The notes beneath the pieces were generated by a model. That model searched no databases. It saw nothing but the letters and a program-made list of their open reading frames with translations, and was not told the origin of the DNA. DNA of 31,961 nt from a virus, in the IMG/VR virus record IMGVR_UViG_3300032299_000411, positions 1 to 31,961 of that record; one strand, written 5' to 3'. Each line of letters opens with the position of its first letter. The stretch's first letter is position 1. The position numbers and the translations under genes were made by a program. Shown piece after piece: positions 12,192 through 12,822 of the stretch.

Positions 12192-12822
12192 TTTGTTTAG
12201 TTGTTGTTTTTGTAAAGTTATTGTTATTTATCCAAACTGATAACATTTTTTGTTTCCAATTTTTTACCCTGTTGCCTTTGGCATCGTACCAATCAGCAAC
12301 CTCATAGTATTCGTATGCTTGTTTTGCCTTTTCTTCTGTACTGCCTTTACTAATAAAAAAATCAATTACTTCCTGTTGTGTGGGTTTGCTTTGTATTCTA
12401 TTATTATTCTTATTAATATTCTTATTAGTATTCTTATTATCTTTAAAATTTCTAATGGGAGGTACTATAATTTCTAATGGGAGGGTATTATCATTTTCAA
12501 TGGGAGGGGTAGTAAATTTCAATGGGAGGGGTATATCCTTATCCATTATCAAAATCAATATTCTTTTCTCAACTTGTTGCTTATCATTCCTATAAATTAC
12601 CCTGCCTAAATAACCTTTTTTTTCTAAATCAGTAATTAATTGACTAACCCTAACTTTACTTAAGTCTAATATTTCAGCAAAATAATCATTCGTAGCAAAA
12701 CAATATCCTTTAATATTTGATAGTCCAGATATTAAACCTATTAGTATTTTTTGTACTGAATTTATATCCTTTGCGTAAAGATATTTATTAGGAATTACTG
12801 CTGCCCAAGATGGTTGTTCCAT
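12076..12822 (-). CDS. Winged-helix replication initiator carrying an internal origin
   Basis: 248 residues. The N-terminus has a winged-helix region (about 25-80) with FATNDYFAEILDLSKVRVSQ and LEKKGYLGRVIYRND, as in phage replisome organisers. A linker (about 95-147) is poor in complexity: PLPLKFTTPPIEN, then PLEIIVPPIRN, then an Asn/Lys run. The C-terminal region (148-205) has QEVIDFFISKGSTEEKAKQA and WKQKMLSVWINN, a domain frequent in these proteins. As in lambda O, repeats that look like iterons lie inside the gene (12454-12529), so the protein probably binds its own coding region. The ATG at 12822 follows a terminator hairpin in the leader by only 5 to 10 bases. Confidence 0.8.
   Translation of the reverse strand: MEQPSWAAVIPNKYLYAKDINSVQKILIGLISGLSNIKGYCFATNDYFAEILDLSKVRVSQLITDLEKKGYLGRVIYRNDKQQVEKRILILIMDKDIPLPLKFTTPPIENDNTLPLEIIVPPIRNFKDNKNTNKNINKNNNRIQSKPTQQEVIDFFISKGSTEEKAKQAYEYYEVADWYDAKGNRVKNWKQKMLSVWINNNNFTKTTTKQNGKTTSDYYRENYEQNLKWANEWDAAEGRQPFFTGEEN
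12406..12439. repeat. Three 12-bp AT-rich direct repeats, possible DNA unwinding element
   Basis: ATTCTTATTA occurs exactly three times at 12406, 12418 and 12430, each 12 bp apart, in a stretch of almost pure A/T (about 12390-12450). It encodes the Asn/Lys linker of the initiator. The layout resembles the AT-rich repeats of bacterial origins that melt first, and it borders the four iteron copies. Confidence 0.6.
12454..12529. other. Four-copy iteron array, candidate phage replication origin
   Basis: AATGGGAGG occurs at 12454, 12476, 12499 and 12521, spaced 22, 23 and 22 bp, about two helical turns, so all copies would face the same side. The extended consensus is TTTC(T)AATGGGAGG(G)GTA. The array lies within the initiator gene and next to the AT-rich 12-bp repeats. 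Arrangement is as in the lambda origin, where iterons lie inside the O gene. Confidence 0.6.

Follow-up and report, generated by a model that had tools for sequence, protein, structure and literature searches.

A putative replication origin within a phage initiator gene, and signs of its exchange as a specificity cassette

The initiator O of phage lambda has its DNA-binding part at the N-terminus and its P-binding part at the C-terminus. In ori-lambda and in Stx phages, four iterons and an AT-rich tract are located in the middle of the initiator gene (lambda annotation; available text of PMC7466680 and PMC3349717). For SPP1 gp38, direct-repeat binding and in vitro replication are described, with the origin in its own gene (available text of PMC6316719). 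The TP901-1 Rep binds repeats in an embedded origin, and the Tuc2009 origin is likewise embedded (both as told in the available text of PMC8965321). Complementation of 80alpha ORF20 in trans failed, and the authors of that study read this as suggesting an origin embedded in the gene (available text of PMC5499656). Similar arrangements are described in plasmids. Rep of pSK41, a RepA_N plasmid, has a winged-HTH N-domain, four boxes in the middle of rep and an origin-encoded linker that can be deleted; in Rep of pPR9, a region of ~500 bp comprising the N-domain and the origin differs from pSK41 and carries pfam13730 (HTH_36), while the C-domain and the upstream region are unchanged (available text of PMC5703833). 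In the PLE satellites of Vibrio, the RepA_N N-domain of the initiator and the iterons swap together (available text of PMC8263062).

Here we analysed a 31,961-bp stretch of viral DNA (the window), in which an initial annotation had proposed a lambda-like origin inside the initiator gene. Sequence analysis indicates that the region is very probably the replication origin of this phage, embedded in its own initiator gene in the manner of lambda O, SPP1 gp38 and pSK41 Rep, with a transferable specificity cassette. The features are as follows.

12076..12822, minus strand: replication initiator gene, 248 aa (Pfam HTH_36, 9.2e-8; PHROG families)
12547..12822, minus strand: N-terminal winged-helix DNA-binding domain, residues 1-92, class 0 (HTH_36 at residues 20-72; AlphaFold2)
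12415..12546, minus strand: predicted disordered linker, residues 93-136 (pLDDT <50), whose coding DNA comprises the iterons and part of the AT tract
12223..12384, minus strand: C-terminal domain, residues ~147-200, with a VKNWKQK core (11 invariant columns in 56 sequences)
12521..12529, plus strand: iteron core 1 (AATGGGAGG); the minus strand reads LPL
12499..12507, plus strand: iteron core 2; the minus strand reads PPI
12476..12484, plus strand: iteron core 3; the minus strand reads LPL
12454..12462, plus strand: iteron core 4; the minus strand reads PPI
12447..12530, no strand: full iteron array, 23-bp period, 3.7 copies (TRF)
12399..12448, no strand: putative AT-rich DNA unwinding element with three 12-bp repeats (12406, 12418, 12430), identified as the least stable segment and by its repeats
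12400..12819, minus strand: specificity cassette, swapped as one piece in the relative L003; it starts just behind the ATG and extends approximately to the 3' edge of the AT tract
11442..12191, minus strand: overlapping downstream gene, 249 aa, in the helicase-loader position, with no informative family match

The window initiator matches PHROG families for replication initiation, DnaD-like and O-like proteins, with E values from 5.9e-16 to 1.3e-7. Its HTH_36 (PF13730) match scores 32.2 bits against a cut-off of 25. Phage_rep_O (PF04492), which lambda O matches at 5.7e-36, is absent among the Pfam matches of the window protein, and two PHROGs named O-like match it at about 2e-8. The likeness to lambda O is thus one of layout; by Pfam, the family is HTH_36 and not Phage_rep_O. 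AlphaFold2 predicted helices and strands in the N-terminal domain, with block means of 75-93 across residues 11-80, and a helical C-terminal domain. Residues 93-136 have pLDDT values below 50 with folded domains on either side, as predicted for the flexible linker of a lambda O-type origin, and a second low stretch is found at 204-210. The initial annotation had held that the repeat arrays encode a disordered linker, and the prediction agrees for most of the encoded residues.

The C-terminal domain has no Pfam match above the cut-off, and its PHROG matches are all to families of ‘unknown function’. The VKNWKQK core is found in 68 of 69 non-redundant initiators among L002-L106, the exception being L011. 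The domain is paired with 25 of the 27 N-domain classes described below, excluding those of L011 and lambda. The nine named phages with a class-0 N-domain, 80alpha, TP901-1 and lambda O have other C-terminal sequences, and a profile of the domain showed no similarity to the C-terminal parts of TP901-1 and lambda O. All 93 phage records matching the domain are Flavobacterium phages; Bacteroidota names are found on only 3 of 20 genome contigs. A sequence search of the PDB returned no match to the C-domain and one weak match to the N-domain (a riboflavin kinase, E 0.014). Foldseek matches to the window protein are weak, the best being 4pql (E 0.026) and the sixth 4pta, an ‘MDR initiator’ (E 0.41), both of which we take to be RepA_N proteins. 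The VKNWKQK domain (also delimited as 12214-12387) is a candidate, uncharacterised replisome-contact domain. The overlapping downstream gene (11442-12191) matched nothing in Pfam or NCBIfam; its single PHROG match is to a family of ‘unknown function’, and no helicase loader was recognised there.

In the whole window, AATGGGAGG has only four exact copies, at 12454, 12476, 12499 and 12521; allowing one mismatch raises the number of matches to 10, against 6.0 expected. Exact copies of ATTCTTATTA are located only at 12406, 12418 and 12430. Both sets had been placed at these positions by the initial annotation, and both lie in the winged-helix initiator ORF (12076-12822, minus strand, 248 aa). The four exact iterons are thus within the initiator coding sequence, as in lambda O-type origins. 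The 23-bp array at 12447-12530 has the highest TRF score of the window (103). The iteron core has the coding-strand form CCTCCCATT, and its spacing of 22/23/22 bp makes the reading frame alternate, so that PPI, LPL, PPI and LPL are encoded. This spacing corresponds to ~2.1-2.2 helical turns: the distance of 22-23 bp proposed earlier is correct, and the accompanying statement that the copies share one helix face is only approximate. As for the AT repeats, their 12-bp period preserves the reading frame and yields NKN units; that they repeat could be a consequence of the protein sequence alone.

The AT tract directly adjoins the iterons, as in lambda O-type origins, and is predicted to melt easily. 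By nearest-neighbour stability, the least stable segments of 30, 40, 50, 60, 80 and 100 bp in the 31,961 bp all begin at 12393-12399. Related initiator genes show a similar trend. In the 79 genes that remained after three failing the measurement conditions were dropped, the AT content of the 50 bp following the array exceeds that of the gene in 66 and that of the 50 bp preceding the array in 62. In 65 of 82 initiator genes, the least stable 50-bp segment is located at 0.5-0.7 of the gene length. When the whole locus is considered, its least stable 50-bp segment falls inside the initiator gene in 26 of 79 cases, whereas 8.3 would be expected from gene length. The lambda-type layout is therefore supported: DNA-binding domain, iterons, least stable AT tract and C-terminal domain follow in that order, and many relatives are alike.

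An array that binds the initiator may instead act as an operator, in autoregulation or in control of antisense transcription. Plasmid Rep proteins often repress their own genes, and promoter-like sites are found on both strands of the region. However, these sites occur at chance level (9 found, 9.4 expected), the window has no exact iteron outside the array, the region upstream of the gene included, and the adjacent AT minimum together with the AT enrichment after the array in the family suits an origin better. We consider an operator without origin function improbable.

Other markers were searched for in the window. The initial annotation had called for a peak in cumulative GC skew at 12.4 kb. 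Instead the skew falls steadily over the window, with no minimum at 12.4 kb; it is uninformative, because nearly all long ORFs are on the minus strand. A DnaA-box origin is not supported, since TTATNCACA with at most one mismatch is found 36 times in the window against 59 expected. Just upstream of the initiator gene, an ORF of 137 aa (12926-13339, minus strand) consists of DnaA domain IV alone (Bac_DnaA_C, 1.2e-12; the C-terminal part of TIGR00362). Rfam and tRNA scans of the window returned nothing, and no terminator-like sites were found in 11400-13400. The ends of the window (2-521 and 31442-31961) are 90% identical over 521 bp, not exactly, and each carries a similar small ORF; a gene duplication is one possible cause, and closure of a circular map across variants in the population is another. 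Within the ORF at 2476-3024, 24 bp are duplicated perfectly in tandem (2871-2917), so that ELQDVPD is repeated in the protein.

To score the repeats, synonymous codons were shuffled within the gene, with protein and codon usage held fixed, and the density of repeat pairs within 100 bp was used as the statistic. None of 10,000 shuffles matched the density observed in the window gene (p=1e-4), and none of 10,000 produced CCTCCCATT four times. By the cruder measure of four exact copies of any 9-mer in the gene, 66 of 10,000 shuffles qualified. The positive control, lambda O, gave p=0.001; its densest 100 nt (nt 295-394) overlap the annotated iterons (nt 349-433). For lambda P and cro, p was 0.69 and 1.0. 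The rep gene of TP901-1, with its published embedded origin, was not significant (p=0.078), indicating that the test misses some embedded origins.

The repeats could also be nothing but a low-complexity protein linker that grew by tandem duplication. The predicted disorder and the in-frame NKN units are in line with this, and in-frame repeat distances are frequent across the family too (160, against a null value of 76.0). However, the iterons alternate in frame and encode different residues, and shuffles that preserve the protein fail to reproduce them. Across the family, out-of-frame repeat distances number 134, more than four times the null mean of 30.4 (maximum 43 in 100 shuffles). The commonest of these out-of-frame distances are 11, 22, 16 and 23 bp. 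Growth of the linker as the sole cause is very improbable.

Related initiators were scored in the same way. The first scan confirmed 220 relatives, of which 80 were kept for analysis; after removal of initiators shorter than 450 nt and near-duplicates, 52 of 81 initiators, the window included, entered the first count. Linker arrays were found in 32 of these 52 at p<0.01 and in 39 at p<0.05. The corresponding numbers for control ORFs of the same loci are 8 and 15 of 191; as the controls were picked by rule alone (non-redundant ORFs of 450-1200 nt with an ATG start), they may include some that are not genes. Genome contigs and two Flavobacterium phages supplied another 21 initiators, of which 13 had p<=0.01 (L099 was excluded as too short). 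Nine named phages with the N-domain class of the window all had p<=0.007 (1000 shuffles), with spacings mostly of 22-24; the 22/23/22 bp of the window agree with the ~22-24 bp of linker arrays in HTH_36 initiators.

In a rerun with 82 non-redundant initiators, which include lambda O and exclude 80alpha and TP901-1, 53 had p<=0.01 and 63 had p<=0.05; L082-L086, further cuts of contigs already in the set, were left out of the counts. Significant peaks fall between 0.37 and 0.60 of the gene length and were seen in 21 of the 27 N-domain classes, that of lambda counted. In the class of the window, 12 of 14 members had p<=0.01, and the other two, L105 and L112, had 0.014 and 0.012. Loss of the repeats in homologues, named beforehand as a result that would count against the origin, is thus seen in part: 29 of the 82 initiators have no array at p<=0.01 (L046, L060, L080 and L107 among them), set against the 53 that do. 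The initiator of a Selenomonadales contig (L093:2506-3267) has a linker of SNSP repeats, encoded by seven words resembling TAGCCCAAG, of which the last six are spaced 12 bp apart; its T of 166 is the highest among the further initiators tested.

The initial annotation had also predicted that AATGGGAGG would persist in homologues. This failed. Among 120 loci, the array is found only in the window's own copy, the exact iteron is missing even in the nearest relatives of the same class (L002 and L005), and only four single matches exist elsewhere, so AATGGGAGG was rejected as a conserved family motif. An iteron profile built by regular expression from eight named phages and one Selenomonas contig recovered, by nhmmer, two of the four window iterons, at ranks 2 and 11 (E 2.8 and 51). 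A search with the N-domain returned only L002 and L005, already in the set, from viral contigs and nothing from genome contigs, so class 0 is thinly sampled near the window.

Comparison by class indicated a different pattern. The N-terminal parts of the initiators split into 27 classes by blastp. Repeated 8-mers are shared by 51 of 234 same-class pairs and by 36 of 3087 different-class pairs; in ten runs of synonymous shuffling the ranges are 9-18 of 234 and 2-10 of 3087, so sharing between classes also exceeds the shuffles and class specificity is only a tendency. With this qualification, the sequences suggest that iterons tend to follow the class of the N-terminal domain. By eye, and with exceptions, class 0 has TACC-rich iterons, class 1 has CCGAnnTCGG dyads ~16 bp apart and class 2 has CATATG mostly 11-12 bp apart. 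The class-specific motifs CCGN4CGG, CATATG and TACCC/GGGTA were picked after the sequences had been viewed, which makes their Fisher values optimistic, and the motif-free 8-mer test was relied on instead.

Natural exchanges were found in close relatives. L003 and L004 are ~91-93% identical to the window on both flanks and have no match to it between ~12420 and 12820; a class-1 domain and a class-1 linker take that place. A finer map of L003 indicated that identity ends right after the ATG and resumes at ~12400, at the edge of the AT tract. In L011, a larger replacement (12210-12815) brings in a third N-domain class. The array of the window has no match across the whole records of L003, L004 and L011; the positive control for this result comes from a separate search, in which a longer query matched the window's record. 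Since the DNA-binding domain and its putative binding sites are contiguous within ~420 bp, they would move as a self-contained specificity cassette.

Such exchanges are not limited to the neighbors of the window. Among 81 initiators (L118 dropped), 33 different-class pairs are at least 80% identical in their C-terminal DNA, and 7 of the 33 are also at least 90% identical over 553-601 bp upstream, although the pairs are not all independent. Most gene alignments of swapped pairs start at nt 350-480, within the linker, and a few start elsewhere. The Staphylococcus phages 85 and 80alpha show the same class 0/class 1 exchange as the window and L003. Identity is 99.7% until 7-8 bp before the start codon; it resumes, at 96.1%, within the AT-rich part (from nt 390 in one gene and nt 414 in its counterpart). 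The nearby joints of relatives would fit an array that is some other DNA site (for packaging, partition or as a recombination hot spot), placed by chance in the initiator gene. This is the least probable reading, since the iterons tend to match the class of the initiator's own N-domain and the joints of L003 lie at the cassette edges, away from the iterons.

We therefore return to an origin embedded in the initiator gene. The computed features are the repeats, the alternation of frame, the AT minimum, the predicted disorder, the tendency of iterons to follow the domain class and the natural swaps. From these we infer binding, melting, recruitment and origin activity. The N-terminal winged-helix domain would bind the four iterons, spaced 22/23 bp. 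The assembled initiator complex would melt the adjacent 50-bp AT tract, and the VKNWKQK C-terminal domain may then recruit a helicase, loader or primase. In the protein, the residues that the array encodes would serve merely as a flexible tether. As these residues need be nothing more, the DNA would be free to act as an origin, and one stretch may double as protein tether and DNA binding array.

The swaps suggest a further property. Phage initiators are likely to be assembled with exchangeable specificity cassettes, in which a DNA-binding domain of one of about two dozen classes, with its own iterons in the adjacent linker, is inserted between an upstream region and a C-terminal domain that both stay fixed. 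One joint would fall close to the start codon and the other within the AT tract or at its end. One recombination event of ~0.4 kb would change replication specificity (incompatibility, origin-targeting defences). Whether phages exchange origins to escape incompatibility or defences directed at the origin thereby becomes a testable question. In addition, a putative origin is now located in an uncharacterised phage, and because shuffling found the lambda iterons without prior knowledge, the approach points to putative origins in many others.

Comparison with lambda indicates the same layout, with four iterons and an AT-rich tract midway through the initiator gene, and similar iteron spacing (20/24/23 by the lambda annotation, 22/23/22 in the window). 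Unlike in lambda, the initiator belongs to HTH_36 and not to Phage_rep_O, the C-terminal domains have no detectable similarity, and no P-like gene was recognised downstream of the window initiator. SPP1 gp38 is likened to the window by its published description alone. 80alpha and TP901-1 match the profile of the class-1 N-domain, a class remotely related to that of the window (1.4e-18 for 80alpha ORF20, gp20, which makes it a class-1 initiator), and match HTH_36 weakly, below the cut-off. They differ from the window in their C-terminal domains, Phg_2220_C and DnaB_2, and in their iteron sequences. The 80alpha record annotates a putative rep_origin inside the same gene (nt 236-461). By analogy, 80alpha appears to be the strongest outside support for an embedded origin in the window.

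Among the literature matches listed, no title concerned an embedded origin in a Bacteroidota phage, which is weak evidence of absence as subscription journals are mostly missing. pSK41 and pPR9 share with the window a winged-HTH N-domain and central boxes, and the weak Foldseek matches to 4pql and 4pta point in this direction. The pSK41 C-domain is described as binding DnaG, in a plasmid (available text of PMC5703833); the C-domain of the window belongs to another, uncharacterised family, in a phage. In PLE the origin is described as non-coding and outside the gene (available text of PMC8263062), whereas the array of the window is within it. With SPP1, TP901-1, 80alpha and the plasmids pSK41 and pPR9 as precedents, the kind of origin proposed here is not new, and single swaps have been published for pPR9 and PLE. 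What is new is this phage member and the breadth of the swapping, which widens the pPR9 and PLE cases to many domain classes.
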